Assembly (NCBI RefSeq): GCF_016406325.1
Contig: NZ_CP066370.1
Coordinates: 2,728,001 to 2,792,000 of the forward strand
Reading direction: 5' to 3'
Source: Shewanella putrefaciens
Lineage (GTDB): Bacteria; Pseudomonadota; Gammaproteobacteria; Enterobacterales; Shewanellaceae
Length of the DNA: 64,000 nucleotides
In this document: piece by piece, positions 8,746-45,249 of the stretch
Layout of the letters: each line of letters starts with the position of its first letter
Position numbering within the stretch: the first letter of the stretch is position 1
The notes under the pieces: model-generated
Seen by the model: the letters and a program-made list of their open reading frames with translations, nothing else
What the model was told of the DNA's origin: nothing
The model's database searches: none
Program-made: the position numbers and the translations under genes

Positions 8746-11700
8746 TTAACTAATCTCTTTTAGTAAACGTCCGGCCTCATCCTGTTGGTGTTCATTACCA
8801 TCTATTTGCACTTCTTTGAGCAATGCTTTTGCACTATCACTGTCGTCAATTTCAATATAAGCACGGGCTAAATCCAGTTTGGCACTGACCGAGTTTTCTT
8901 CATCATCGACATCAATCATAGCGGCATCGCCAAGTAAGGCACCAACGTCACTCATCTCAATGTCAACTTCAGGATAGAGATCTATATCGGAGCGATCTTG
9001 CTCCGCATCGTTAAGTAATTTATCGATATCAATAAAACCATTTTCATTCTGGAAGTTGGTCAAATCGTGCTCTGGCACTAATTTTTTTGATTGACGGGAT
9101 TCCTGCGCATCCAATGCGGCTAAGGCTTCATCGACCGTCAGAGTATGTTCATCATCGAGGGCAAAGCTATCTTCGGTCGTTAATATATCATCGTCATCAA
9201 AATCGGTATTTGCGGTAAATGCCGCAAGAACACTGTCATCACTCAGATCAAGATCTGTGCTTAAATCGAGATCATCATCAAGATTAAAGTCAATTTTAGG
9301 CTCAGCCCTAGTGGTTTCTGATGGAAAATCAAGCGCGCTCGACTTAGCAATCACTGGTGCATCTAAACTCGCATCCATCGACTCATCGAGGGTTGGTGTG
9401 ATATTAACCTTAGGCTCTGGGGATGTAGACGCAAAATCAAGCTCTGTATCCCAATCCAGCACGTGGGGTTCTTTACTCTTATTTGCTTTTAAATCATTGA
9501 AGAAAGAGGATTCTTTTTCCTTAGCACTCGCTGCTGCAGCAACAGTAGCGGCCAGCGCCGCTGTAGTCAGAGCATCGGAATTAACATCATCACTATTGAA
9601 ACCGGTGAATTTTGCGTCTTCGGCAGTCGCATCGATATTATCACTGAGGTCTTCTACTAAGGTAAAAGTATCATCAGTGCCGTCAAGCGCGTGGCTAGCT
9701 CCAATCCCTTTGAGTAAATTATCTTCATCTGTAGGACTTTCTTGAGTATCAAGCGGCGTCGTTTCTATATCAAAGTTGAAATCATCACTGTCAGCTTCTC
9801 CCTGTTCTGGAACATCAAACTCAGCTAAAAGTGCATCAAGATCATCTTCTGAATCTGAAAGATCTTCGGGTAATGATGCTTCGAGTTCTTCGGCAATCTC
9901 ATCATGCATGCCGCGATTATCGGCAATACTTGGTGTATCGACTGTTCCCGTTTCTGAAAATATATCGCTGTGGGGAGCAATATCGTCTTCATCTTGCATA
10001 TCAAATTCGGCAAGAAGCTGTTCAAGATCATCATCGGTGGCTGACAAATTGGTATCGAGTTCATCTTCGAGCTCAGCAGCGATTTCTTGGGCAACGTCAT
10101 CATCCACAGATACAGCAGCACTGGCTGGCTCATCAAACCCAGCAAGTAAGGTATCAATATCCTCGGTATCGGCTACTGCAATATCATTCAGTTCTTCATC
10201 TAATTCAGCAGCAATTTCATCGCGTAAATCGGGTTCAGGGGCGGTAGGCTTATCAAAATCCGCCAATAAGGCATCAATATCATCAATCTCTTCTACCCCC
10301 AAAGACTCAAGATCACTGTCGAGTTCTGCGGCAATTTCCTCACCAAGATCAGCAGCCTGTTCTGAAGGTGTAAGTTTATCGAAATCGGCAAGTAACGCAT
10401 CGATATCATCATTGTTATCGATATCAAGATCATCTAACTCAGCATCCAGTTCTGCGGCAATTTCAGCGCCTAAATCAATGCTTGCATCATTGTTCTCCGG
10501 AGTTTCAATATCCGTAAAATCATCAGTATCAACCGACGCTTCAGCAACATTCGCTAAGGTATCAACATCATCAGGGGCTTGATTGGCTGAGTCTTCCGTG
10601 CCAAGTCCCGCCAACAGAGCATCGAGATCTTCCTCCTCAAGAATGTTCCCTGATTTAGGTTTATCCTCAACGGATTCCTCCTCTTGATCGCCCATAGCCT
10701 CAGCCCAAAGGTCATCAAGTGATTGACCTTCGTCTTCTTCAAATTGTGGTTCTGCTTGCGTACTGCCTGTATCGATAAACATTTCAGAGGCGATGTTCAT
10801 CTGTTCATCACTATCAACCATACCTTGTTCAGGTTGCAGGCTTACACTGCCAACATCTAATAAGCTATCTATAGAATCAGCATGATCCGTATCTAAATGA
10901 ATGGCCATATCATGGAGGTCATCCTCATCCATCGATAAGATACTGGCTCCTGTCGCCATACCTGCGCCAGCGGCAGCCATAGCGGCTTGTTGCGCCGCTA
11001 ACTCACGGCGCTCTTTATTACGTTTACGACGAAGCATCATAAATACAAGTAATAAAATCAGTAGCGCAGGTATTACTGCGGCTGCAATTAACATTGCAGG
11101 ATTATTGATAATCTTCCGCCATAAGTCATCTGGCTCTATTGGCATATCGGGTTCAGAAACGGAAACAACATCAGCGGATTGTGCCGCTTCCACTTCTGCT
11201 TTTAACGCTTGGTTCTGCTGCTTACTAGCAAGAAGCGTTTCTTCAAGTACCGCAATTTGTTGATTTAATTCTTCAACCTTAGCTTTTAATGCTTCAACAT
11301 CCGAGTTACGAACTGAGAGTTGATCTTGGGTTCGAGCTAATTCATCGGTCAAAGAGAGGGTTTTCCGCTCCGCAGCCTCTAGGCGTGCATTGACATCCGA
11401 ACTCAACATTTTAGGTTCAGACTTAACCACAGTGGCTGTTTTTGCCACAGCATCCTGTTTAGATTCAACAGGTTCAGACTTTGGCTCAACTTTAGGTTCA
11501 ACCTTAAGCTCAGTTTTAGGTTCAACCTTAACAACAGGAGCAACGACAGGTGATGTCTGCGCAATGGCTTTCGTGGTGTTAGGTTCTTTAGCGCGAGGAG
11601 TGGTTGTCTTAGCTGGAGATTTTACGCCTGCACGCGCTAACTTATCATCACGTTCAGCACGAGCAATTGCCACACTATTGGGAATGGCAAGCATGACTTC

Positions 11701-25271: not shown

Positions 25272-28061
25272 TTGCAAGCCTCTCAGTCTATTTATAAAAG
25301 CCCAAACGACCATCGCCAGTATCGTTATCTTGTTTTAGATAACGCGCTCAGGGTGCTATTGGTTGAAGATCTAGATGCCAGCCAAGCGGCTGCATCGATG
25401 GCTGTTGGTGTAGGTCATTTTGATGATCCCACAGATAGACCTGGCATGGCACACTTTTTAGAGCATATGCTCTTCCTTGGTACAGAAAAATTCCCCGATT
25501 CAGGCGAGTATCACGCCTTTATCAATCAACATGGCGGCAGCAATAACGCTTGGACAGGCACTGAGCACACTAATTTCTTTTTCACCATCAATGAAGACGT
25601 ATTTGCCGATTCCTTAGACAGATTCAGCCAATTTTTTATCGCACCTAAATTTGACTTAGACTTAGTCGATAGAGAGCGCCAAGCCATTGAATCTGAATTT
25701 AGTTTAAAGCTGAAGGATGATATCCGCCGAATATACCAAGTGCTGAAAGAAACCGTTAATCCACAGCATCCTTTCTCGAAGTTTTCCGTGGGTAATTTAG
25801 TCACATTAGGAGGGGAGCAAGCGCAGATCCGTGGGGAATTATTGGATTTTTATCAGCGTCATTACAGTGCCAACCTAATGACCTTGTGCTTAGTTGCACC
25901 ATTTCCCCTTGATGAATTAGCACACTTAGCCCGTTATTATTTCAGTGGGATCCGTAACTTAAATTTAGTGAAAAACTATCCTCAAGTACCGCTTTTTTCA
26001 CCAAAAGAATTACTAACTCAAGTTGATATAGTGCCGCTTAAAGATCAAAAACGCCTAAGTATCAGCTTTAATTTCCCCGGCATTGATCACTATTACAAAC
26101 GTAAACCTCTGACTTATATAAGCCATATTCTAGGTAATGAGAGTAAAGGCAGCTTATTATCTTATCTTAAAGAGCAAGGGCTGGTGAATAACTTGTCTGC
26201 TGGTGGCGGTGTTAATGGATATAATTTTAAAGATTACAGTATTGGATTGCAGCTAACAGATAAAGGGCTGGCCAATCTTGATGACATTATTTGCAGTTGT
26301 TTTGAGTATATCGAACTCATCAAAACCCAAGGTTTAGATGAGTGGCGTTATTTAGAAAGAGCAAACCTACTCAAAATGGCGTTTCGGTACCAAGAGCAAG
26401 TTAAATCCCTCGATTTAGCCAGCCATCTCAGCATCAATATGCATCATTATGAGGTTGAAGACTTAGTCTTTGGTGACTATCGCATGGATGGACTGGATAT
26501 TGCGGAGACCATCGAGCTACTTGAATTGATGGTGCCACAAAATATGCGCTTACAGCTTGTTGCACAGTCCGTGAAAACAGATCGTCAGGCTAATTGGTAT
26601 CATACACCTTACAAAGTTAGCTCTATCCCTCCAGAATCTATTGCACGCTGGCAAGTAAAGCATATCCGTCCCGAGTTACAATTACCCACAGCGAACCCTT
26701 TTATTGTCGCCGACTCGATTGCTCGTCCAGATAAAAGCCTAGTCGCTGTGCCTGTGATAGTTGCAGAATCATCGGGATACCGAATTTGGCACAAGAAAGA
26801 CGATGAGTTCAATGTGCCAAAGGGCCATATGTATTTATCGCTTGATTCAGAGCAAGCAAGTAAAACCCCAAAACATGCCGCCCTCACCCGCTTGTATGTT
26901 GAGATGCTACTCGATTATCTGACCGAGCCCACCTATCAGGCCGAAGTTGCGGGCTTAAGCTACAATATTTACCCGCATCAAGGGGGGATTACTCTGCACT
27001 TATCAGGTTTTACCGGTAATCAAGAAGCCCTATTAGCATTGTTGATCCACAAAGCGAGGGAGCGCAATTTTACCGAAGAGCGTTTTGCACTGATTAAATC
27101 CCAACTGCTACGTAGTTGGCAGAATTTGGCACAAGCTAAGCCTATTACACAACTATTTACTAGCCTTACCGTCACTCTGCAAAAACGCAGTTATGAACCG
27201 GCGCGCATGGCCCAAATGCTAGAAAATATCACCCTAGAGGATTTACATAACCATGTGCGTGCCTTCTACGAAAAAATCTATCTTGAAGGATTAGTCTACG
27301 GGGATTGGTTAGTCTCTGAAGCACAAGCACTTGGCAAGCGTTTAGAACATATTTTATCCTTAGTCTCGACGCCAAGTGCCGAATCAACTAGAGAATTAGT
27401 CAATCTAACAGGTCAAGGCACACTACTGCGCGAACTCGCCATAAACCACCAAGACAGCGCTATTATCGTTTATTATCAATCAGCTGTTGCAACGCCAGAA
27501 AAAATGGCACTATTCAGCTTGTTGAATCACACTATGTCATCAACCTTCTTCCATGAACTGCGCACCGAAAAGCAATTGGGTTATATGGTAGGCACAGGTT
27601 ATCTACCACTCAATCGTCATCCAGGGCTTATTTTCTATATCCAATCCCCCACCACTGGACCATTGCATCTATTAGAGGCCATAGACGAATTTATTGCCGA
27701 CTTTAACTATGCAGTCATGCAGATCACCAACGAAGAATGGGAAAGCACTAAACTCGGCCTGATTAATCAAGTGATGGAACATGATGCGAACCTAAAAACC
27801 CGCAGTCAACGTTATTGGGTGAGTGTGGGCAATCGGGATTATCAATTCAATCAAAGAGAATTGGTCGTAGAAGAAATCACTAAGCTCACGCGTACAGATT
27901 TACTCAAATTTATGATGCGTAAAATGCGTACAAAACACAGTGATCGTTTAGTGCTATTTAGTACTGGCGAGCAGCACAGAGCTCAGGCAGCACTGAAGTC
28001 AGAGAAAATGATAAACGATTTAAAAATATTTAAACAAAATGCCGATAAGTTTAATTTTTGA
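25272..28061 (+). CDS. M16 (insulinase/pitrilysin-family) metalloprotease
   Basis: Large zinc peptidase of the pitrilysin/insulysin type, 929 aa, close to the length of E. coli protease III without its signal peptide. The start is TTG (25272), with ggag 7 bases upstream. No signal peptide is visible, so it is probably cytoplasmic. The inverted zinc motif HFLEH is at 61-65 (ligands H61 and H65, base E64). The third ligand is E142 in RERQAIESEF. GGSNNAWTGTEHTNFFFTI (88-106) and the C-terminal TEKQLGYMVGTGYLPLNRHPGLIFYIQSP block (the Arg/Tyr substrate-binding region, near residue 770) are typical of the family. It is a single gene between the structured repeat element and the large sensor gene. 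Confidence 0.92.
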   Translation: MQASQSIYKSPNDHRQYRYLVLDNALRVLLVEDLDASQAAASMAVGVGHFDDPTDRPGMAHFLEHMLFLGTEKFPDSGEYHAFINQHGGSNNAWTGTEHTNFFFTINEDVFADSLDRFSQFFIAPKFDLDLVDRERQAIESEFSLKLKDDIRRIYQVLKETVNPQHPFSKFSVGNLVTLGGEQAQIRGELLDFYQRHYSANLMTLCLVAPFPLDELAHLARYYFSGIRNLNLVKNYPQVPLFSPKELLTQVDIVPLKDQKRLSISFNFPGIDHYYKRKPLTYISHILGNESKGSLLSYLKEQGLVNNLSAGGGVNGYNFKDYSIGLQLTDKGLANLDDIICSCFEYIELIKTQGLDEWRYLERANLLKMAFRYQEQVKSLDLASHLSINMHHYEVEDLVFGDYRMDGLDIAETIELLELMVPQNMRLQLVAQSVKTDRQANWYHTPYKVSSIPPESIARWQVKHIRPELQLPTANPFIVADSIARPDKSLVAVPVIVAESSGYRIWHKKDDEFNVPKGHMYLSLDSEQASKTPKHAALTRLYVEMLLDYLTEPTYQAEVAGLSYNIYPHQGGITLHLSGFTGNQEALLALLIHKARERNFTEERFALIKSQLLRSWQNLAQAKPITQLFTSLTVTLQKRSYEPARMAQMLENITLEDLHNHVRAFYEKIYLEGLVYGDWLVSEAQALGKRLEHILSLVSTPSAESTRELVNLTGQGTLLRELAINHQDSAIIVYYQSAVATPEKMALFSLLNHTMSSTFFHELRTEKQLGYMVGTGYLPLNRHPGLIFYIQSPTTGPLHLLEAIDEFIADFNYAVMQITNEEWESTKLGLINQVMEHDANLKTRSQRYWVSVGNRDYQFNQRELVVEEITKLTRTDLLKFMMRKMRTKHSDRLVLFSTGEQHRAQAALKSEKMINDLKIFKQNADKFNF

Positions 28062-28345
28062 GCATGAACTGCAAATAATAATGAAACAGCATCATTTTTG
28101 ACGAACAAACAAAATCCCTGTCATAACGTCATACTACAGTAGTATCTTCCACGCCTATGCGTTATCTCAATGGAAAACATGGTTGGATGCCATCTTACCC
28201 TACAAATAGCGCTCAAATTTACCTCATCTACATGCTACTAAAAGGATTTTTTACAAAGTCAGTTTTGACAAACCCATCACTTTCTGGAAAAGTGATGTAA
28301 CATAATTGTTTCATGGCATCATCGGATAATATTAAGAACAATACT

Positions 28346-31300
28346 ATGCCTAACATTCTCTTGAAAATCGTCTTGCTCGCTATTTTATGCTTGTACACAT
28401 TAAAAGACGTAAATGCATCTCTCTTTTCTGATAAGTCACCAATAGTTCTACAATCGCAATCTTTCGGCGTTCCGCAAGGGCTTTCACAGAGTACAGTTAC
28501 CTCTATCGTTCAAGACAAAGATGGTTATATTTGGATTGGCACACTTAACGGACTAAATCGTTTTGATGGTAAAGAATTTAGACATTTTTATGCTGATGAT
28601 AGTGCTTCTGGTTTACCAAGCTCATTCATTCGAAGCCTACTTATCACAAATGAAAATGAACTCTTAATCGGCACTGACAAAGGACTTGTCTTATATAATA
28701 AAAATGATGAGTCGTTTAACACTCTCGATATCAAGAGCGAATATCTGGATGGTGAGATATGGAGTTTATCCAACAATGACTTTAATAATGAAATTCTAGT
28801 TGGGATAAATAAAGGCATAGTCAGCCTTGACTTAAAGAATAACAATATTAGAAATGATTATATAGGGAAAGATTATCTTGAAGTAAAGAAAAGTTTAAAT
28901 GTTGACAATGAAATATTTATAAAAAGTTATGATGGTAAATTATTCGAAATTAAAAATAACAATAAAAAAATGTTAATGACAGACGTTTTGGATATAGGGA
29001 GTTACGAAGGAAATCTTTTTATTTCGACAAATAATGGCTTATATAAATACAGAAAAGGAAATTTAAAAAAATCATCCTCTATAATCTATGACTTCCTAAG
29101 TGAAACAGAAGGAGAATTATACGGAATAAATAAAAATAAAATTTACAACATAAAAAGAAACATTCTTATCGGTCAAATATCAAATAGAAAAGAAAAAATA
29201 GAGCAAACCTATTTTATTGCATACCAAAATTCTTTAATTATCGGACTAAATAATCAAGGTTTTGAACTAATAAAGAAATCAAATAACCTAGTGTATCATA
29301 CAGATCTACTGGATGAAAATGTTTGGCATATCAGTCTTAGTTTTGATGGAAACATATTAATATCCTCAGATAGTCCACTGTTACATTATTATGACAAAAA
29401 TCTTAATCTTAAAAAAAGCTATGACAGCAACGTATATGGCTATAAGAATTCTGTTATGACAAAAGAAGGTGTTTTTATTGGCAGTTCAAATGGAGTTAAA
29501 TTAATAAATAACTTAGATGTAGAAGAAAATATAACATCTGAAAAAGTCACTACTTTAAATAAAATAAACTCGAATAATATCATTGCTGGCACTTCAGATG
29601 GGAAAGTTTTTTTCATAGAAGACCGTGAGATCTATCACATATTAAGTCTGGAAAAGGAAGATCCTATTTTTGAGGTATTATATATTTCAAAGGACAATAT
29701 TTTTATAGCAAGCCAAAATGGTATGTACCATTATAAAAATGGTAAATTGAATAAAATCCATAACGAATTAACGTATAGTATCAAAGAGTTTAATAACAAC
29801 ATTTTATTTGGAACTTCATCATCACTGTTCAAGTATGATACTGAAACAAAAACATTAAGCAAGTTATTCTCGAATAACAAGGGGATATACTCAATATTAA
29901 TTCTAGAGAATACGATCTTTGCATCTTCACAAGGTCAAATTATTTTAATCCATGACAACTCCACTTATATTTTATCCACTTCAAATGGAAGTCAATATGA
30001 ATACAACACTCCCAGCGGAGGTGTAATTGATGAGAATCATTTACTATTTGGCGGCATCAACGGATTAAGTATTATATCAAAAAGCAATGTACTAGACTAC
30101 ATTGAAAAACTTCCAGCACCTCGATCTGAACTATCTGAATTGCGCGTATTCAATTCAATAACAAGCAATAACTCAGGATACTTTATTGGTTCATTAAACA
30201 CTGCGGAGAATATTACACTTAAATACTCAGACTATCCATTTTCAATCTCATTCAATTCTCCCACATCAGAATCATTATCCACTTCTTATTATTATAAAAT
30301 GGATGGATTATCTGATGAATGGATAGCATCAAATAACATTAATTCTGCAACCTACACTAACCTATCACCTGGAAAGTATATTTTTAAAGTATATGCAATT
30401 GATTTATTAACTCAAAAAAAAGGTCCCGTTAAAAGTATTGACATAATCATAACACCCCCATGGTGGTTATCAACTGAAGCTAAGTCACTTTATTTTATAC
30501 TTTTAGTGGTATCTCTTTTAATTGTCACAAAGACTATTTTACGCAGAAGAGAAACTCAGCGACAAATAGCTCTAAGTGAAGAAAGATTAAAACTATCCCT
30601 ATGGGGTAGTGGTGATGAAATGTGGGACTGGGATATAGAAACGGGCAATATTTTTCGCTCAAATATTTGGGGTTCCCTTGAATTCCCTCGCGATGGTCAT
30701 CGTTCAGGTAAAAACAACGAGGAAAGTAATATTCACCCAATGGATCAGGAGCGTGTTAGGGAAGCACTTAATAAACACTTTTATGGAGAAACAGATCATT
30801 TTGAGGCAGCTTACAGAGTAAAAGGTAAAGATGAAAACTGGGTCTGGATTTTAGATAGAGCTAAAATTGTAGAACGAGATGATAAAGATAATGCCCTACG
30901 TATGACGGGAACCATTAAAAATATTAGTCAATTTAAACAAAAAGAAGAGCAATTACGACTTTTTGAAAAAGCCATTGAAAATATTTCAGAAGGCATGTTT
31001 ATTCTCGACAGTGAATACCGTTTTGTTGAAGTCAATGAAGCGTGCTGTAAGATTTCATTACGTAACCGAACTGATTTTATTGGCAACTTGCTCACATTTG
31101 ATTTATATCCTGAAAACTTTTCCTCTCAAATAAGAACCATGCTCAAACAACAAGGTCGTTGGGCAAATGAAGTCGAAGCAGTTAGAGGGGATAATCGTCA
31201 CTTTCATATGGAACTCACTATCGATGCTATTTATGATGAATTGGGCGAACTATCCCATTATGTTGGGGTTTTTTCAGATATTTCTCGACGTAAACAGCAG

Positions 31301-32623
31301 GAAGAAGAACTTAGAAAATTAACCAATAATGATCTACTGACTGGACTCCCCAATAGATCGAATCTACAGGTCACGTTAAGTAACTTAGTGAATAAGGAGA
31401 TTGCCCATTCTTTGATGGTACTTGATCTTGATAACTTTAAGCGTATCAATGACTCATTGGGCCACCAAGTGGGGGATCAATTGCTAAAACTTGTTTCTAT
31501 TAGAGTAAAATCTATTCTTCCTAAGAATACGAGTATTTATCGCTTAGGTGGCGATGAGTTTGCAATCGTACTGGATAAAGGTTCTGATATTAGTGCCAGT
31601 GCTGCAATTGCAGGACGAGTAATTGAAGCATTCAAAATGTCCTTTAACATAAATGAAGAACAACTCGTTTTAGGATTAAGTATTGGAATCGTTTTATACC
31701 CTGAAGATGAACAGAACGAGCAGGCCTTGCTCAGAAAAGCTGATATTGCTATGTACCATGCAAAATCGGCAGGAGGAAATTGCTACCAATTCTACTCTGA
31801 ATCGCTCAATCAGCATGCCATTAAACAGTTGGAAATAGAAAATCTTATTCGTGAAGGGCTGAAAGAAGATCTATTTGAAGTCTATTACCAACCTAAAATT
31901 GATCTAAAACGAGGTCGTGTTGCTGGCATGGAAGCTTTAGTGAGGTTAAATCATCCTGTGCAAGGTTTAATTCCTCCTAAGGAATTTATTCCCCTCGCAG
32001 AAGAAAGTGGTTTAATTGTTGAGATTGGTGAAATAGTTTTACGTAAAGCCTGTTTTGCTGCACAGAAATGGCGTGAACAGGGGTTATTTAACGGTAGAGT
32101 CGCTGTCAATTTATCGTCGCGTCAATTTGCACTGCCCGATATCCAGCAACGAATAGAGTCAATTTTAAGACTAACCAAACTCCCCGCTTGTCATCTTGAG
32201 TTAGAAATTACTGAAGGTACCGTCATTAAACAGCCAGAGGCAGCGATTATCGTCATGCAGCAATTGGCTAAAATGGGCGTTAGTTTAGCACTAGATGATT
32301 TCGGCACAGGATACTCATCCCTTTCATACTTAAAACGCTTTCCTATTCATACCTTAAAAATTGACAAAGCCTTTGTTGATGATATTGATAAATCTGATCG
32401 CGATCTCAAAATGGTCGATTCTATTATCACCATCGCCCATAATATGGGGCTTTCTGTGGTTGGTGAAGGCGTCGAACAAACTGCACAATTAAATATTTTG
32501 CGAGCATTGAATTGTGAAGAAATCCAAGGTTATATTTTTAGCAAAGCGATAAAGGAATCCGAGTTTACTCTACTTCTTCAAGCGGACATGGTTAAGGAAA
32601 CCACAAAAAACAACATTATCTGA
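28346..32623 (+). CDS. Two-component-propeller / PAS / GGDEF-EAL sensor (c-di-GMP turnover)
   Basis: Membrane sensor of about 1425 aa. The start at 28346 gives an immediate signal peptide (MPNILLKIVLLAILCLYTLKDVNA). An ATG at 28313 is also possible; neither has a good ribosome site. A periplasmic two-component-type beta propeller covers about 30-620 (GLSQSTVTSIVQDKDGYIWIGTLNGLNRFDG). A Y_Y_Y domain lies at about 635-705, one membrane span at about 713-731, then two PAS/PAC modules. GGDEF is intact near residue 1070 (YRLGGDEFAIVL) with no RxxD inhibitory site five residues before it. EAL is intact near 1195 (GMEALVRLNHP) and retains LDDFGTGYSSLSYLKRF. Both cyclase and phosphodiesterase activity are possible. 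The propeller part is strikingly A+T-rich compared with the catalytic part. Confidence 0.9.
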   Translation: MPNILLKIVLLAILCLYTLKDVNASLFSDKSPIVLQSQSFGVPQGLSQSTVTSIVQDKDGYIWIGTLNGLNRFDGKEFRHFYADDSASGLPSSFIRSLLITNENELLIGTDKGLVLYNKNDESFNTLDIKSEYLDGEIWSLSNNDFNNEILVGINKGIVSLDLKNNNIRNDYIGKDYLEVKKSLNVDNEIFIKSYDGKLFEIKNNNKKMLMTDVLDIGSYEGNLFISTNNGLYKYRKGNLKKSSSIIYDFLSETEGELYGINKNKIYNIKRNILIGQISNRKEKIEQTYFIAYQNSLIIGLNNQGFELIKKSNNLVYHTDLLDENVWHISLSFDGNILISSDSPLLHYYDKNLNLKKSYDSNVYGYKNSVMTKEGVFIGSSNGVKLINNLDVEENITSEKVTTLNKINSNNIIAGTSDGKVFFIEDREIYHILSLEKEDPIFEVLYISKDNIFIASQNGMYHYKNGKLNKIHNELTYSIKEFNNNILFGTSSSLFKYDTETKTLSKLFSNNKGIYSILILENTIFASSQGQIILIHDNSTYILSTSNGSQYEYNTPSGGVIDENHLLFGGINGLSIISKSNVLDYIEKLPAPRSELSELRVFNSITSNNSGYFIGSLNTAENITLKYSDYPFSISFNSPTSESLSTSYYYKMDGLSDEWIASNNINSATYTNLSPGKYIFKVYAIDLLTQKKGPVKSIDIIITPPWWLSTEAKSLYFILLVVSLLIVTKTILRRRETQRQIALSEERLKLSLWGSGDEMWDWDIETGNIFRSNIWGSLEFPRDGHRSGKNNEESNIHPMDQERVREALNKHFYGETDHFEAAYRVKGKDENWVWILDRAKIVERDDKDNALRMTGTIKNISQFKQKEEQLRLFEKAIENISEGMFILDSEYRFVEVNEACCKISLRNRTDFIGNLLTFDLYPENFSSQIRTMLKQQGRWANEVEAVRGDNRHFHMELTIDAIYDELGELSHYVGVFSDISRRKQQEEELRKLTNNDLLTGLPNRSNLQVTLSNLVNKEIAHSLMVLDLDNFKRINDSLGHQVGDQLLKLVSIRVKSILPKNTSIYRLGGDEFAIVLDKGSDISASAAIAGRVIEAFKMSFNINEEQLVLGLSIGIVLYPEDEQNEQALLRKADIAMYHAKSAGGNCYQFYSESLNQHAIKQLEIENLIREGLKEDLFEVYYQPKIDLKRGRVAGMEALVRLNHPVQGLIPPKEFIPLAEESGLIVEIGEIVLRKACFAAQKWREQGLFNGRVAVNLSSRQFALPDIQQRIESILRLTKLPACHLELEITEGTVIKQPEAAIIVMQQLAKMGVSLALDDFGTGYSSLSYLKRFPIHTLKIDKAFVDDIDKSDRDLKMVDSIITIAHNMGLSVVGEGVEQTAQLNILRALNCEEIQGYIFSKAIKESEFTLLLQADMVKETTKNNII

Positions 32624-32732: not shown

Positions 32733-33431
32733 ATGATTAAAGAAATCCTGACTGTCGTTACTTTGCTATCTTCAATTGGTTATGCTGCAAACTTTGCTCT
32801 TGAAGGTTCTCCAAACGTTAAATTCAAGCCATTGGAAGTTGCTGGCTCTCCAAACGTTAAATTCAAACCATTAGAAGTTGCTGGCTCTCCAAACGTTAAA
32901 TTCAAACCATTAGAAGTTGCTGGCTCTCCAAACGTTAAATTCAAGCCATTGGAAGTTGCTGGCTCTCCAAACGTTAAATTCAAGCCATTGGAAGTTGCTG
33001 GCTCTCCAAACGTTAAATTCAAGTCATTAGAAGTTGCTGGAGCTCCAAACGTTAAATTCAAACCATTAGAAGTTGCTGGCTCTCCAAACGTTAAATTCAA
33101 GCCATTGGAAGTTGCTGGCTCTCCAAACGTTAAATTCAAGCCATTGGAAGTTGCTGGCTCTCCAAACGTTAAATTCAAGCCATTAGAAGTTGCTGGCTCT
33201 CCAAACGTTAAATTCAAGCCATTAGAAGTTGCTGGCTCTCCAAACGTTAAATTCAAGCCATTAGAAGTTGCTGGCTCTCCAAACGTTAAATTCAAGCCAT
33301 TAGAAGTTGCTGGCTCTCCAAACGTTAAATTCAAGCCATTAGAAGTTGCTGGCTCTCCAAACGTTAAATTCAAGCCATTAGAAGTTGCAGGTTCTCCAAA
33401 CGTTAAATTCAAATCGTTTGAACTGGTATAA
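32733..33431 (+). CDS. Secreted protein of sixteen 13-residue repeats, unknown function
   Basis: Not a recognised family. The 232-aa product opens with a Sec-type signal peptide (MIKEILTVVTLLSSIGYAA), probably cleaved after GYA or YAA. The mature part is four or five residues (NFALE) and then sixteen tandem copies of GSPNVKFKPLEVA. Variants are repeat 6 (S for P), repeat 7 (A for S) and the last copy (GSPNVKFKSFELV). Val/Phe and Leu/Val alternate with polar residues between Pro and Gly turns. This would suit short beta strands, as in a beta-solenoid, or a linear precursor cut into identical peptides. A weak ribosome site (gagaat) precedes the ATG. A 38-aa peptide gene follows 24 bp after the stop. 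Function is unknown. Confidence 0.8.
   Translation: MIKEILTVVTLLSSIGYAANFALEGSPNVKFKPLEVAGSPNVKFKPLEVAGSPNVKFKPLEVAGSPNVKFKPLEVAGSPNVKFKPLEVAGSPNVKFKSLEVAGAPNVKFKPLEVAGSPNVKFKPLEVAGSPNVKFKPLEVAGSPNVKFKPLEVAGSPNVKFKPLEVAGSPNVKFKPLEVAGSPNVKFKPLEVAGSPNVKFKPLEVAGSPNVKFKPLEVAGSPNVKFKSFELV
32805..33428 (+). repeat. Sixteen tandem 39-bp repeats
   Basis: Sixteen head-to-tail 39-bp units with no spacer, all in frame. Most differences are synonymous (aag/aaa, ttg/tta). Copies 10-14 are identical and copy 15 differs by one base, so this block is the youngest. The 39-bp length keeps any open frame open, which is why the reverse strand also lacks stops here. Confidence 0.97.
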
Positions 33432-33455
33432 CATATATTTGTTAAGGAGATAACT

Positions 33456-33572
33456 ATGCTAAATTCAATCAAAAAAGCACTCGGTTTATCCAAGCCTGTG
33501 CGTAAAAAAGTCAAGTTGCCTGAAGGCTTGAATCGTCTTGAAGTGATTTCTGCAAAAGGTTGGTGGAACTAA
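33456..33572 (+). CDS. 38-residue basic peptide downstream of the repeat protein
   Basis: Short ORF with a strong ribosome site (aaggag, 6 bases before the ATG). It encodes 38 residues: MLNSIKKALGLSKPVRKK, then VKLPEGLNRLEVISAKGWWN. No signal peptide or membrane span is visible. The N-terminal half is basic and could form an amphipathic helix. The second half has a VKL...LEV pattern that faintly echoes VKFKPLEV of the neighbouring repeats, and the chain ends in GWWN. It lies 24 bp after the repeat-protein stop and before a terminator, so the two are probably co-transcribed. It could be a partner, an immunity or anchor peptide, or a precursor peptide; none of these is shown. It is not a known family to me. 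Confidence 0.65.
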   Translation: MLNSIKKALGLSKPVRKKVKLPEGLNRLEVISAKGWWN

Positions 33573-33645
33573 TTTAAGTTCTGTACCGATGAATCTCACT
33601 CATGCACAGTGATAGTTAATTAAGCTAGCGCAGCTTAGAAACAAT

Positions 33646-33671
33646 AAAGGGAGCAAAAGCTCCCTTTAGTT
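33646..33671 (+). terminator. Terminator of the repeat-protein operon
   Basis: Perfect arms aaagggagc (33646-33654) and gctcccttt (33659-33667) with loop aaaa, followed by agtttt. It lies 74 bases after the 38-aa ORF. A second small hairpin, taagct/agctta, lies at 33621-33637. Confidence 0.75.
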
Positions 33672-34256: not shown

Positions 34257-36377
34257 TTAGAAAAAGCTAACATTCTCTCTAGCCATGGTTTTTAAGCGCT
34301 CACAAGGTTCGAATCTGTTACCGAATTGACTTTGATAACTTTCAAGGATCTTCACTAAGTTCGCGGCGCCTAAAGTGTCAATATAATGGAATGGACCACC
34401 GAGAAATGGCGGGAAGCCAATACCGAAAATAGCGCCAATATCACCGTCTCTTGGCGATGCAATAATACCATCATCTAAACAACGCACCGCTTCATTGAGC
34501 ATTTGTACAACACAACGCTCAGCAAGTGCTTTTGCGTCTTTATTGGTGCCAGGCTTAATGCCTAATACGCCATACACAGTTTCATCGACAGCTTTAGTTT
34601 TCTTGCTCGATGCGCCGTATTGATAAAAGCCTTTGCCATTTTTACGGCCTTTACGATCGTCACCTAAAAGCTTGTCAAATGCGGCTGGCGCTTTAAAACG
34701 TTCACCCAATTCTTTCTCAAGGATCGGTGAAATTTTTGCGCCCACGTCGATACCCACTTCGTCGAGCAAAGTAATTGGTCCCACAGGGAAGCCAAATTTC
34801 ACTAAAGCTTTATCCAAATGCTCAACACTTTGGCCTTCGAGTAGTAATTGCGCGGCCTCATTCATGTAGAGTGCCAGAATACGGTTCACGTAGAAACCCG
34901 CGCCATCCTGTACCACTATCGGTGTTTTACCTTGCTTACGGGCAAATGCGACAGTAGTCGCAATGGTTTCTGGCGACGTTTTAGCATGGGCAATCACTTC
35001 CACCAGCGGCATTTTTTCCACTGGCGAGAAATAATGTAGACCAATTACATTCTCAGGACGCGTCGACGCCTCGGCGATTTGGCTAATAGGCAAAGATGAG
35101 GTGTTTGACGCAAAAATAGTGTGCTCACCACACTCACGCTCAATGTCTTTCACCATTTGATGCTTAAGCGCTAAGTCTTCAAATACCGCTTCCACTACGA
35201 TGTCGGCATCTTTAACGCCTTTATACTCAGTGGTTGTAGTCATCAGCGCCATTAAGTTGTCACGGGCAGCAGGCGTCATATGGCGGCGCTTTACCCCTTT
35301 ATCTAACAACTTATAGGCATAAGATAAGGCATTGCTTAAACCCTTTTCGCTGATGTCTTTTACCCGAACAGGGATTTTAGCCTTAGTGGTGGTCACAGAG
35401 GCGATACCGCCGCCCATTAAACCGCCGCCTAAGATCACCGCTTTATTCACTTTGCGCGGTGTTGCACCCTCTGCGCCAGTTTCTTTCTTCATTTCAGTGG
35501 TGGCGAAAAAAATACTGCGCAGCGCTTCAGATTCTTTTGATACCACTAATTCGGCAAAATGACTCGCTTCGACTTCTAACCCTTTTTGCATCCCCTTCGC
35601 AATCCCTTGACGCACGCAGTCAATAATCTTGGCTGGTGCTGGATAATTACCTTGGGTTTTCTTTTCGACTTGTTTAGTCGCTTGATCGAAAATAATGTTA
35701 CGGCCAAAGCTCGTGCCTTCAAGCACTTGATTAACGAGTGACTTTTTAATAGGTTTCGGTGCACGTTTACCAGCAAGCGCCATCTCAACGGCGGTTTGCA
35801 GCAAAATGGTCTGCGGTACAACATCATTCACTAAGCCCATTTTCAAGGCTTGTTTAGGACGGATTTGTTTACCGGTGAGCATCATATCTAAGGCAGTGGT
35901 AATGCCGACTAAACGAGGCAAACGTTGCGTCCCACCGCCGCCAGGCAATAGGCCAAGTTGAACTTCCGGTACGCCGAGCATGGTTTTACCATCGTCGCTA
36001 CATACCCTTTGATGACAGGCTAAGGCTAACTCTAAGCCACCACCTAAACAGGCACCATGGATTGCCGCAACCACAGGAATTTTTAATGCTTCTAACTCAT
36101 TAAAAACCACATGCCCTTGCTGGGATAAGGCTTTGGCATCGCCCACCGTTTTACAGGCATCGAGCATGGAAATATCCGCGCCCGCAACGAAAGAGTCTTT
36201 TTTGCCAGAGATCAGCACGAGTCCACGAATATGAGGATCGCTTTTAATCTCAGCAAGGATCTCACTGATTTCAGGGCCAAACTGTGCTTTTAGGGTGTTC
36301 ATGGTTTCGCCAGGAACATCCATAGTCAAAATGGCAATGCCGTCGTCGCGGCGGGTCAAATTAAAGGTCTTTTCCAT
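34257..36377 (-). CDS. fadJ: Fatty-acid oxidation complex alpha subunit FadJ
   Basis: Multifunctional beta-oxidation enzyme with enoyl-CoA hydratase and 3-hydroxyacyl-CoA dehydrogenase activities. Length is 706 aa, as for FadJ. The hydratase/isomerase domain fills about 1-190, with [20 protein letters not shown] and [19 protein letters not shown] giving the oxyanion hole and Glu region. [22 protein letters not shown] carries the second catalytic Glu. The dehydrogenase NAD motif [17 protein letters not shown] is near residue 310, and [20 protein letters not shown] holds the catalytic His near 445. It starts 5 bp after fadI and forms the fadIJ operon. Confidence 0.96.
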
Positions 36378-36382
36378 GCCAA

Positions 36383-37693
36383 TTACTCCACTTCCACTAT
36401 CATAGCCACGCCCAAACCACCGGCCGCACAGGCCGTCGTTAAGCCAGTTCCACCACCACGGCGCTTAAGCTCACGACACACTTGGGTTATTAAACGGGTT
36501 CCCGTTGCCGCAAAAGGATGACCATAAGCGAGCGAGCCACCGAGCACGTTAAACTTACTCATGTCGATTTCGCCAATCGCGCGGTTGCGGCCGAGTTTTT
36601 CTTCGGCAAATTTTTTCGAAGCAAACATCTGCATGTTCGCTAATGTCTGCGCAGCAAAGGCTTCGTGCATTTCAATCAGGGTAAGATCTTCTAATTCCAT
36701 TCCAGCACGTTTTAACGCCAGTGGCGTCGCGTAGGATGGCCCCATCAGCATATCTTGCCACACATCAATGGCGCTAAAGGCGTAGCTCTTAATATAACCA
36801 ATCGGTTGATAACCTAAGGCTTTAGCTCGACCTTCGCTCATCAGAATAATCGCAGACGCACCGTCCGTCAGTGGCGTACTATTGGCCGCCGTCACAGTAC
36901 CATGTTGTTTGTCGAATGCAGGGCGCAACTTAGCATATGACTCCAATACCGAGTTTTCGCGGATATTGTTATCACGATCGATAAACTGCTTATACGGCGG
37001 TATATGCGCGACCATCACTTCGTCACGCAAATGGCCAGAAGCCCAAGTTTCACTCGCTAAGGTGTGTGAACGGTGCGCTAAGGCATCTTGATCGGCACGG
37101 CTAATATTGTAGGTTTTTGCCATCTGCTCGGCGGTTTGTCCCATAGACAAGCCCGTTGAGTACTCTGCCACTGCAGGCGGCACAGGTAATAAATCCTTTA
37201 AACCTAAACGGCGGAAAATTTGTAACTTTTGCCCAAAACTACGGGCTTTATTCAAATCGACTAACGCATGAGCTAATTTTTTCGACACACCGATAGGCAA
37301 TACAGAGGAAGAGTCGGCGCCGCCCGCAATACCGATGTCGATATTGCCCGTCATAATAGATTCGGCCACGTTGACAGTAGATTGGAAGCTAGTCGCACAG
37401 GCGCGAGTGACACTATAGGCATCGGTCGACACATTCATGCCAGTACCGAGCACGATTTCCCGGGCTATATTCGGTGCAGCCGGCATTTGCACGACTTGTC
37501 CATAGACTAATTGCTCAATCAGCTTAGGATCGAGTTCAGAGCGCGCCAATAATTCATTGACCACCATTTTGCCCATATCTAATGCCGATACACCGTGGAA
37601 TGCCGTGGCTTGTTTCGCAAATGGCGTTCTTAAACCCGCTACAATGGCGATACGTTCACCCTTGGCGTTCGTAACCTGTTGTCTATCACTCAT
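36383..37693 (-). CDS. fadI: 3-ketoacyl-CoA thiolase FadI
   Basis: Thiolase that cleaves 3-ketoacyl-CoA in the last beta-oxidation step, as the beta subunit of the FadIJ complex. Length is 436 aa, matching FadI rather than the shorter FadA (about 387). The nucleophilic Cys is in [18 protein letters not shown] near residue 98. The His/Cys pair lies in [20 protein letters not shown] and [22 protein letters not shown] at the C-terminus. The ATG follows gggtga. FadR- and PsrA-like sites lie 98-165 bp upstream, between fadI and the divergent MoxR gene. Confidence 0.96.
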
Positions 37694-43537: not shown

Positions 43538-45174
43538 TCAGACAATTTTTTATCCTCTTACTCCTTATTATTGGAGTAACTCACCCCGTATATGCCATCA
43601 CTAAGCTGGAGGCTTCGGTTGATCGAAACCCCGTGATGGAGGGCGAGTACTTTGTGCTAAATATCAGTGCTGATGATGAAATTGATACGGCTAAGCTCGA
43701 CACATCAGCCCTATTAAAAGACTTTATCGTCGGCCGTACTAGCGTGAGTCGCAGCACCCAGATAATGAATTTTGATGCGGTAAAAGAGACTCGTTGGCAA
43801 GTGCTCCTAGCACCAAAACAAAAGGGACAATTAACGATCCCAGCGTTCAGTATTGATGGTGTAAATTCTGCTCCTATTCCGCTCAAAGTGGTTGATAGCG
43901 GCAGCCAAGTCACACAAACAAACAATCTGTTTATTGATGCTAAAGTCTCAACCAATGAGGCCTATGTCGGCCAATTGATCACTTACAAGGTAAAACTCTA
44001 TCTGGCGGTAGAGTTACAACGGGGGGTATTGAATGCTCCCGTCATTGAAGGCGCACAAATTAAGCAGATTGGTGAAGATAAAGATGGCTCAGAAATTGTT
44101 GATGGTCGTCGTTACCGTGTAATTGAACGCACCTATGGCATTATTCCCGACTTACCCGGTCAAGTGAATATTAAAGGCGCGACCTTCTCGGGTGATGTAT
44201 TAGTCGAATCTCAACGCCGTGGCGGTATGTTTGGCTTTAATGAAAGCCGTCCTATGCAAGCTGGTGCACCGTCATTGACAGTACAAGTAGAACCCGCACC
44301 AGCAAGTTTTCAAGGCCAATGGTTAGTGGCAGATCTTGTCGTACTCAAAGAAAATTTCCCTGAGGAGAGTAAAGAATTTACCCTTGGCAATCCGATTACT
44401 CGAACAATCACGCTGTTAGCGTCAAATGCCGATGAAAATAGTCTGCCAGATGTTATGCAAGATTTACCCGATGAATTAAAGCAATACCCAGAAAAACCTC
44501 AACGCCAAACCTTTGTACGCGATGCACAAATTGTCTCCCAGTACAGTATTACCTCGGCAATAGTGCCAACCCAAGCGGGCACATTCATCTTGCCGGAAGT
44601 TAACGTCCCTTGGTGGAATCCACACCTTAAACGCCAAGAAACCGCTACGCTCCCAGCACGTACCATAGTCGTTAAAGGTGGAGCCGTTCCTGACGCTACA
44701 GTGCAACCTACTTGGCAAGTTGACAGCGATACCGAAAATTATTGGCCTTGGGTGAGTGCTCTTTTTGCCATGTTGTGGCTTGTCACATTCGTGGCATGGC
44801 GCCGCGCGCTGACACATAAAACGACTATCGTTGCAACTCCACGTCCAGAAACTGCACCAATACAAAGTTTAAAAGGCTTAGAGCAAGCCTGCGCTAGCGG
44901 CAATACCAGCGATATTTTATCGCAATTGCAACATCATTTTAGCCACACCACTGGCAATACCATGACATTAGATAAAATTGCGGCGCTTTCTCCCCAACTT
45001 GCGGAGGCGATTAATCGGCTGCAAAGCATCGCCTATAGCGCCAAAGGCAACACAACTGAAAGCCAACATCGCTTAAGTGACGCCGCCAATGCATTGCTTA
45101 ACGCCGTTAAAGCCAGTGAGTTTACTCTGCCCTCGAAAGTCCATGCCCCTTTAAGTCCACTTAATCCAAGGTAG
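43531..45174 (+). CDS. BatD family protein
   Basis: Last gene of the MoxR/Bat operon, 547 aa, GTG start overlapping the previous gene by 7 bp. A signal peptide (VIRQFFILLLLIIGVTHPVYA) leads to tandem periplasmic beta-rich domains (TKLEASVDRNPVMEGEYFVLNISADDE, IDAKVSTNEAYVGQLITYKVKLY). One membrane span follows near residue 405-425 (YWPWVSALFAMLWLVTFVAWRRA) and then a helical cytoplasmic tail. This layout is standard for BatD, which is thought to bring the VWA partners to periplasmic substrates. The stop codon lies inside a 19-bp tandem duplication. Confidence 0.9.
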   Translation: MVIRQFFILLLLIIGVTHPVYAITKLEASVDRNPVMEGEYFVLNISADDEIDTAKLDTSALLKDFIVGRTSVSRSTQIMNFDAVKETRWQVLLAPKQKGQLTIPAFSIDGVNSAPIPLKVVDSGSQVTQTNNLFIDAKVSTNEAYVGQLITYKVKLYLAVELQRGVLNAPVIEGAQIKQIGEDKDGSEIVDGRRYRVIERTYGIIPDLPGQVNIKGATFSGDVLVESQRRGGMFGFNESRPMQAGAPSLTVQVEPAPASFQGQWLVADLVVLKENFPEESKEFTLGNPITRTITLLASNADENSLPDVMQDLPDELKQYPEKPQRQTFVRDAQIVSQYSITSAIVPTQAGTFILPEVNVPWWNPHLKRQETATLPARTIVVKGGAVPDATVQPTWQVDSDTENYWPWVSALFAMLWLVTFVAWRRALTHKTTIVATPRPETAPIQSLKGLEQACASGNTSDILSQLQHHFSHTTGNTMTLDKIAALSPQLAEAINRLQSIAYSAKGNTTESQHRLSDAANALLNAVKASEFTLPSKVHAPLSPLNPR

Positions 45175-45205
45175 ACATAGATAAATAAGGTAGACATAGA
45201 TAAAT
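45168..45205 (+). repeat. Perfect 19-bp tandem duplication across the batD stop
   Basis: The unit aaggtagacatagataaat occurs at 45168-45186 and again, directly abutting, at 45187-45205. The first copy contains the batD stop codon. It is a recent local duplication with no visible function. Confidence 0.85.
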
Positions 45206-45249
45206 GAGCTAGAAATAGTGAATACTAAAATAAAAAACGAAGTATAAAA

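Follow-up and report, generated by a model that had tools for sequence, protein, structure and literature searches.

The window analysed here, a stretch of 64,000 nucleotides from Shewanella putrefaciens, contains a three-gene cassette that encodes a sensor, a tandem-repeat protein and a small peptide (the WW peptide) and sits between a gene for an M16 peptidase and the fadJ/fadI genes (Table 1). The domains encoded by the last two genes were tested; fadJ and fadI are the names that we presume for them. The end of the sensor ORF is 109 bases from the repeat ORF, and a gap of 24 nt that contains AAGGAG lies between the repeat ORF and the WW ORF. The WW peptide ends with AKGWWN, and no signal peptide was seen in it; its family has an amphipathic-looking N terminus and a conserved LPxGLxxLxV...A..WW tail. 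Tandem duplicates of the WW gene occur in several species (e.g., in genomes G004, G053, and G072). No exporter gene is among the three genes of the cassette. A role in processing was considered for the M16 peptidase, but it is not counted in the cassette, since it is present, adjoining fadJ, in four genomes that have none of the three cassette genes (G001, G060, G063, and G100).

Table 1. Features of the cassette and its flanks (positions in the window)
Feature	Positions	Strand	Basis
M16 peptidase, left flank	25272..28061	+	
Sensor, 1436 aa: predicted periplasmic double beta-propeller + Y_Y_Y, PAS, PAS, GGDEF, EAL; likely receptor	28313..32623	+	
Sensor ectodomain, residues 1-721, hypervariable between alleles (about residues 120-640)	28313..30475	+	
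Sensor cytoplasmic part, PAS-PAS-GGDEF-EAL, conserved between alleles	30575..32620	+	
Tandem-repeat protein, 232 aa, ATG start, predicted secreted; likely multicopy ligand precursor	32733..33431	+	
Predicted Sec signal peptide, 18 residues, cleavage point by eye	32733..32786	+	
Array of 16 x 13 residues; core A-G-x-P-x-[IV]-[KR]-F and less constrained linker	32805..33428	+	
WW peptide, 38 aa, MLNSIKKALGLSKPVRKKVKLPEGLNRLEVISAKGWWN, conserved partner	33456..33572	+	
Intrinsic-terminator-like hairpin 3' of the WW gene	33645..33668	+	
fadJ-like (enoyl-CoA hydratase + 3-hydroxyacyl-CoA dehydrogenase), right flank, convergent	34257..36377	-	Domain search
fadI-like thiolase, right flank, convergent	36383..37693	-	Domain search

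An earlier note on this DNA had described the repeat protein as a secreted protein of sixteen near-identical 13-residue repeats. Indeed, 16 units were counted, 13 of which are exactly GSPNVKFKPLEVA; GSPNVKFKSLEVA and GAPNVKFKPLEVA have one change each and the terminal GSPNVKFKSFELV has four. The signal peptide was predicted by eye: MIKEILTVVTLLSSIGYA has a Lys in the n-region, a hydrophobic core and G-Y-A, which are features of Sec-type signal peptides, and six residues (ANFALE) lie between it and unit 1. The C-terminal residue of the protein is Val. The calculated monoisotopic mass of the GSPNVKFKPLEVA 13-mer, 1384.77 Da, falls inside the range of about 1.35 to 1.4 kDa given before, and the unit has no dibasic pair. 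At the DNA level, the array was detected by TRF as 15.5 copies of 39 bp with 96% matches and a score of 1119; the remaining three tandem arrays in the 64-kb window scored 51 to 81. Short tandem repeats are found at positions 11470-11531 (24 bp) and 45168-45218 (19 bp). An ORF antisense to the array (positions 32780-33514) was taken as a by-product of the array.

A search of a protein database with the whole repeat protein gave no relative at an E value of ≤0.001 among the 7993 candidates scored, which presumably reflects the penalty for low complexity. Relatives were collected by genome searches instead, and these yielded proteins with 1 to 34 units (median, 12; 81 loci). Neither the repeat protein nor the WW peptide matched a family above the cutoff in Pfam and NCBIfam, and to that extent the statement that no family is recognised holds; the weak matches of the repeats to JHBP, T2SS_GspN_Lepto and others in these collections were below the cutoff and were rejected as repeat-driven noise. 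In being repetitive and predicted to be secreted, the protein is like known Pfam and NCBIfam repeat families, from which it differs in that none of them was matched above the cutoff. An AlphaFold2 model had two short strands per 13-residue unit with a mean pLDDT of only 49.4, and a Foldseek search with this model gave no match in the PDB at an E value of ≤0.001.

Of the 107 loci with a WW peptide found in the genus (see below), 105 entered a survey of units (those of G101 and G109 were outside the regular expression for WW) and 98 gave repeats; G095, G025, and G031, as well as G101 and G109, were seen separately from this survey. At least two cores of the form P-x-[IVLF]-[KR] were present in 97 of the 98 repeat proteins and a single core in the other one. 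The modal spacing of the cores in the 97 proteins was 13 residues in 89, 9 in 5, and 14, 15, and 17 in one each, and the array of G040 mixes spacings of 11 and 13. Units of 9 to 17 residues have A-G-x-P-x-[IV]-[KR]-Φ in common, and 92 of the 98 proteins end with Ala. Some relatives are repeat proteins of only 3 to 5 units, and in six loci (L125, L126, L142, L143, L164, and L175) unit 1 follows directly after the end of the signal peptide. The 79 arrays of 13-mers had 65 different consensus units, with Ala at position 13 in 78, Gln or Glu at position 11 in 73, and Lys (72) or Arg (7) at position 6, where the search motif constrains the residue; positions 3, 5, and 6 of the 13-mers are all imposed or limited by that motif. 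Identity was 95.0% within these arrays versus 49.3% between their consensus units.

In the window's array, 11 synonymous and 2 nonsynonymous codon differences from the commonest unit were counted with the terminal unit omitted and the motif imposed. Over 80 arrays with 929 units, where the motif was not imposed and 33 out-of-register blocks were dropped, there were 2060 synonymous and 338 nonsynonymous changes, and the ratio of nonsynonymous to synonymous changes was 0.055 of the random expectation, that is, the units are under strong purifying selection. Since the codon changes are mostly synonymous in both the window and the 80 arrays, the array is more than a DNA repeat. Moreover, 238 of the 338 nonsynonymous changes were at positions 9 to 12 of the unit and 61 at positions 1 to 7, a distribution which argues that each unit is made up of a conserved epitope (about Ala-Gly-x-Pro-x-Ile/Val-Lys-Phe) and a looser linker.

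Among 117 genomes of the same genus, the repeat protein was matched in 98 and the WW peptide in 107, and the organism names in 66 related loci were all Shewanella. The ten genomes of the genus without a WW match include the four that have none of the cassette genes (see above) as well as G071 and G078, where the locus ends at contig edges. A sensor is kept in G018, G057, G066 (in two frames), and G088, none of which has a WW match; in G018, G057, and G088 it is followed by a secreted-looking protein of 59 residues with a single C-terminal motif (RIPIVIF, QFPIVVF, or RFPIVIF), and single-motif proteins of this size (59 to 60 residues) thus occur in these three genomes and in G107. An order-wide draw of 394 genomes gave the WW peptide in 35, of which 30 belong to the genus and 5 to two other families. 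In all five loci outside the genus, the WW gene is next to a sensor of this kind and to a short protein that looks secreted; fadJ/fadI lie beside it in four of them, and in the fifth the contig ends there. One of these families, f20, has the WW peptide in 4 of 7 genomes; its units are RIPVRFEPATEM, RVIIRYAQQDEQ, HIPIRFEPVAEQ, and RIQIRISPEQEQE, with no residues after the motif at the C terminus of the proteins. In a third family (L093 in G191), the secreted-looking protein has only 43 residues and the end ETVAIEEGVAI, perhaps with two degenerate motifs. In the sister genus g2, both the repeats (GGIPWIKLSEQQVA) and a peptide that ends with WW were found at contig edges in G482, G466 has repeats but no WW gene, and G145 has a diverged sensor with neither repeat nor WW seen. 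A class-wide draw of 369 genomes gave the WW peptide only in the window's own genome.

The sensor was found by Pfam and NCBIfam searches to contain Reg_prop, Y_Y_Y, PAS, GGDEF, and EAL domains. The model of its ectodomain is a double beta-propeller with Y_Y_Y (mean pLDDT, 90.1) that matched BT4663 (PDB 4a2l) with a TM score of 0.76; identity to the matched structures was 16 to 20%, and the solved ectodomain closest to it has been described as sensing heparin. Since the signature letters of both GGDEF and EAL are present in the sequence, the likely output, as a predicted activity, is c-di-GMP. The DNA upstream of the WW gene extended over 6 kb or more in 83 loci; a full-length sensor ORF was present in 80 of them, pieces of one in two (L114 and L160), and the cytoplasmic part only in one (L167 in G049). 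In L167, neither an ectodomain nor the M16 peptidase was found in the 8.6 kb fetched, and the repeat array and the WW gene are present. These three sensors, which may be incomplete through decay or sequencing error, lie beside intact repeat arrays.

For comparisons between alleles, the sensor was split at a conserved PPWW that precedes the membrane helix, and statistics were based on the 79 loci with a PPWW-type full sensor, a clean unit, and WW. Ectodomains differed by a mean protein distance of 0.649 and cytoplasmic parts by one of 0.199. The 79 loci fell into 60 ectodomain classes at a distance cut of 35%, and 16 of 19 groups with near-identical cytoplasmic parts (cut, 0.05) contained more than one ectodomain class (cut, 0.35). 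Receptors were also compared within species that were chosen by source name among the best 120 of 4682 matches, and two or three ectodomain alleles were present within some named species. Distances between alleles were 0.537 to 0.639 for the ectodomain versus 0.015 to 0.031 for the cytoplasmic part in S. glacialipiscicola, 0.501 to 0.556 versus 0.004 to 0.010 in S. insulae, and 0.601 versus 0.006 in S. colwelliana; S. mangrovisoli and S. oncorhynchi likewise have several ectodomains on nearly one cytoplasmic part. The contrast was less clear in S. putrefaciens (0.603 versus 0.092) and S. waksmanii (0.325 versus 0.048), and ten proteins of S. baltica were alike (0.019 at most) in a list selected by likeness to the query.

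Unit and ectodomain were found to change together between close relatives. L124 and L119 differ by 0.001 in the cytoplasmic part but by 0.527 in the ectodomain, and their units are AGFPHVKV and AGYPHVKF. The same was seen with L186/L185 (0.006 versus 0.709; AGSPHIRY and AGTPNIKF) and L116/L103 (0.006 versus 0.638; AAAPNVRF and AGHPAVKF), whereas pairs with the same unit had ectodomain distances of 0.003 (L126/L125), 0.043 (L155/L154), and 0.075 (L112/L111). Altogether, 26 disjoint pairs had a cytoplasmic distance of ≤0.05. The unit core was identical in 7 of them, with a median ectodomain distance of 0.087, and different in 19, with a median of 0.531 and 18 of the 19 values above 0.25. The two kinds of pairs differed in ectodomain distance (Mann-Whitney P = 7e-5) but not in cytoplasmic distance (P = 0.31). 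The exception among the 19, L161/L159 (different modal core; ectodomain distance, 0.044), was discounted, as the two unit types that alternate are the same in both arrays. Two of the seven same-unit pairs are exceptions, with ectodomain distances of 0.33 to 0.34, and so is a wider pair, L185/L171, which has a common unit at an ectodomain distance of 0.514.

Within clusters of similar cytoplasmic parts, unit and ectodomain distances correlated with a rho of 0.667, compared to 0.177 ± 0.114 in the null distribution and to 0.058 for unit and cytoplasmic distances; at each of three thresholds (observed rho of 0.667, 0.519, and 0.423), none of 2000 shuffles of units within clusters reached the observed value. 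The converse was also found: in 22 of 22 pairs with an ectodomain distance below 0.40 and a cytoplasmic distance above 0.05, the units differ at no more than one of the 8 core residues, and their mean unit difference was 0.08; it was 0.31 in 234 further pairs whose cytoplasmic distances were in this range. Covariation with the unit was everywhere along the ectodomain (rho of 0.26 to 0.47), with no local specificity patch. Over the whole set, partial Mantel correlations were not specific (0.228 for unit and ectodomain given the cytoplasmic part, 0.244 for unit and cytoplasmic part given the ectodomain), and the case for joint switching rests on the close pairs. In another family, a replicate of three pairs had three different units, with ectodomain distances of 0.443 to 0.531 and cytoplasmic distances of 0.033 to 0.104.

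The replacement is confined to two separate segments. For L124/L119, DNA identity was 90.6% in M16, 59.4% in the ectodomain, 96.5% in the cytoplasmic part, 76.1% in the repeat, 98.3% in WW, and 92.2% downstream. Over 23 pairs, the WW gene and downstream DNA were 84.5 to 99.1% identical and the M16 stretch 80.6 to 94.8%; for M16, the values of L102/L101 (50.0) and L152/L141 (43.1) were spoiled by contig ends and not used. In 12 pairs with different units, synonymous differences (pS) were saturated in the ectodomain (0.68 to 0.77), and cytoplasmic pS was 0.05 to 0.6 in 11 of them and 0.77 in the pair of the window and L108. In 8 same-unit pairs, ectodomain pS was below cytoplasmic pS in 6 and above it in 2, L186/L184 and L142/L126, in which the unit was kept though ectodomain pS (0.705 and 0.633, respectively) was far above cytoplasmic pS. 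As a control, six other, orthologous Y_Y_Y sensors were compared in four of the same genome pairs, with the ectodomain boundary set at residue 724 and not taken from a motif. Their ectodomains differed by 0.029 to 0.198 and the rest by 0.011 to 0.145, compared to 0.525 to 0.661 and 0.001 to 0.015 for the cassette sensor; the ectodomain was thus more variable than the rest in all six, but far less than in the cassette sensor. Ectodomain dN/dS was 0.09 to 0.27 and cytoplasmic dN/dS 0.00 to 0.03 in the eight same-unit pairs, so that no average positive selection on the ectodomain was detected in these pairs and the allele classes seem to be old ones that were exchanged and not ones that have recently been driven to diverge.

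Since the unit and the predicted periplasmic domain switch together while the cytoplasmic half and the flanks stay nearly unchanged, the repeat protein is probably a multicopy ligand of the adjacent upstream sensor, a reading drawn from sequence comparisons. The suggestion that the protein is a multicopy peptide precursor thus gains support as far as a multicopy ligand is concerned, because the unit covaries with the adjacent ectodomain in close pairs, independently of phylogeny; cutting into 13-mers is only proposed. That beta-propellers elsewhere bind short linear motifs fits such a ligand. Counted against it are the poor permeability of the outer membrane to peptides of 1.4 kDa together with the lack of an exporter gene in the cassette, the lack of a dibasic site in the window's unit, the heparin sensing ascribed to the nearest solved ectodomain, the spread of covariation over the whole ectodomain, the array of L167 without an ectodomain, the sensor of G145 without a visible repeat, and the repeats of G466 without WW.

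How such a ligand would work can be sketched as follows. The preprotein would be exported by Sec, and the core A-G-x-P-x-[IV]-[KR]-Φ would either be displayed in many copies on the uncut chain or be released by cleavage close to the Ala at the end of the unit. The near-constant Ala at the unit end (78 of 79) and at the C terminus favours cutting; the absence of a known protease site does not. The core would then bind the double beta-propeller of the sensor, and binding would alter the output of the PAS-GGDEF-EAL part and hence c-di-GMP. Many identical copies could give a higher ligand dose or avidity, and unequal crossing-over may keep the array uniform. Each pair of alleles would constitute a private pherotype, with ectodomain and unit swapped jointly by recombination and with the flanks, the WW peptide, and the output half left in place. 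The WW peptide does not follow the allele switches and probably has its role in a step that is independent of the allele, be it processing, export, or relay. In its fullest form, which we put forward tentatively, the units would be pheromones of 9 to 17 residues that are cut from the preprotein, act between cells, and are read in an allele-typed manner by a beta-propeller receptor of the matching type, which would control c-di-GMP directly. It is conceivable, to a similar degree, that such a private peptide language spans Shewanella and members of two neighbouring families, with receptor and peptide swapped jointly by recombination.

An alternative that overlaps with this explanation and differs from it solely on release is that the repeat protein binds the sensor inside the same cell only, as a check of the envelope or of secretion, with no role from cell to cell. 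All covariation data fit it, both partners are predicted to be periplasmic, and only a Sec signal and no exporter were seen. We nevertheless regard it as somewhat unlikely, since 60 ectodomain classes in 79 loci and two or three receptor alleles within a species would be hard to explain unless cells meet the ligand of others.

It is improbable that the repeats fold as a beta-solenoid or matrix fibre and that the sensor merely monitors this scaffold. The two short strands per unit in the AlphaFold2 model and the Pro/Gly turns agree with such a fold, and c-di-GMP proteins often govern the matrix. The low pLDDT and the absence of a PDB match at the above E value argue against it, as does the coil length, which would not be constant (9, 11 and 13 mixed, 13, 14, 15, or 17 residues), and so do the proteins with a single motif or with 3 to 5 units. 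The structural beta-solenoid offered in the earlier note as one of two readings is disfavoured on the same grounds.

A phage, toxin, or competitor might attack the ectodomain, with the repeat protein serving as a matching decoy or shield. This would agree with a hypervariable domain that is predicted to be exposed and is replaced by recombination, but it is very unlikely given dN/dS values well below 1 in the eight same-unit pairs and a GGDEF/EAL protein as the partner. Mere proximity of adjacent genes in a recombination hot spot is hardly credible as the source of the coupling: the replaced segments are separated by about 2 kb of cytoplasmic region left unreplaced, as is the WW gene just downstream, so that one linked block fails to explain the pattern, and similar ectodomains on different backgrounds have similar units (22 of 22 pairs).

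In the agr and the streptococcal comCDE systems, pherotypes are characterised by a ligand gene beside the receptor gene, joint polymorphism of the two, a conserved output, and several alleles per species. The cassette is similar in that the putative ligand gene adjoins the likely receptor gene (80 of 83 cassette loci) and that the unit and the sensor domain vary jointly, with exceptions, next to a conserved output domain; as to alleles within species, several were seen for the receptor. It differs in its parts, which have no homology to those of agr and comCDE: these use a histidine kinase and a cyclised or double-glycine peptide, whereas the cassette, which belongs to a Gram-negative genus, encodes a tandem-repeat protein that carries a predicted Sec signal and a GGDEF/EAL sensor of the double-propeller type. 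The behaviour of the cassette resembles that of pherotype systems (PMC2751782). No com or agr part was recognised in the cassette, and by domain search the receptor is not a histidine kinase of the AgrC/ComD type; therefore, the cassette is likely to be categorically new as a system, though it would work like the known pherotype kind.

Yeast alpha-factor is made from a multicopy pheromone precursor. The repeat protein is like it in that a signal peptide, here assigned by eye, is followed by tandem, near-identical short peptides; it is unlike it in that no dibasic sites lie between the window's units, the types of cell and receptor are different, and cleavage is here a proposal. The ectodomain has the double beta-propeller and Y_Y_Y fold of the Bacteroides hybrid two-component sensors BT4663 (4a2l), BT3049 (3v9f), and BT4673 (3ott). 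In contrast to these, the output is PAS-GGDEF-EAL with no kinase, the ectodomain is hypervariable, and the ligand is likely a peptide and not a glycan. A search of open-access full-text literature, with subscription papers and bioRxiv preprints mostly outside its scope, gave no description of the repeat protein or of such a system. In passages of a 2026 review, the peptide section is headed 'the Gram-positive paradigm and beyond', and Shewanella is mentioned once in the text, among bacteria with acyl-homoserine lactones, and twice in the references (PMC13220807).

If our reading is correct, peptide signalling of the pherotype class would exist in Gram-negative bacteria and be wired directly to c-di-GMP, linking the recognition of self or of other cells to this messenger in a single step. 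Peptide-typed recognition would then be present in most of an environmental genus, given the WW peptide in 107 of 117 genomes, and it would be explained what one class of double-propeller GGDEF/EAL sensors senses. The loci would also be a natural library of matched ligand-receptor pairs for studies of specificity, with ligands that can be synthesised as 13-mers.

The repeat protein is no orphan; the earlier note had overlooked the sensor, the WW peptide, and an allele-typed family across most of the genus. Such a system is easily overlooked, since a protein search with the repeat finds no relative and since, in draft genomes, repeat arrays are often located where a contig ends or where there are runs of N (e.g., L051, L082, and L192). 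In L051, L082, L149, and L177, where no repeats were scored, the WW gene is within 400 bases of a contig end; the repeat family is probably under-assembled in draft genomes. Two further observations concern the arrays themselves. Those of L159 and L161 contain two unit types, ARVPGVKV and ARIPGVRV, in near-equal numbers, which might represent two ligands or a transition. Finally, AGVPHIKF is both the last unit of L094 and the main one of L138, and it may be the trace of a change of allele.
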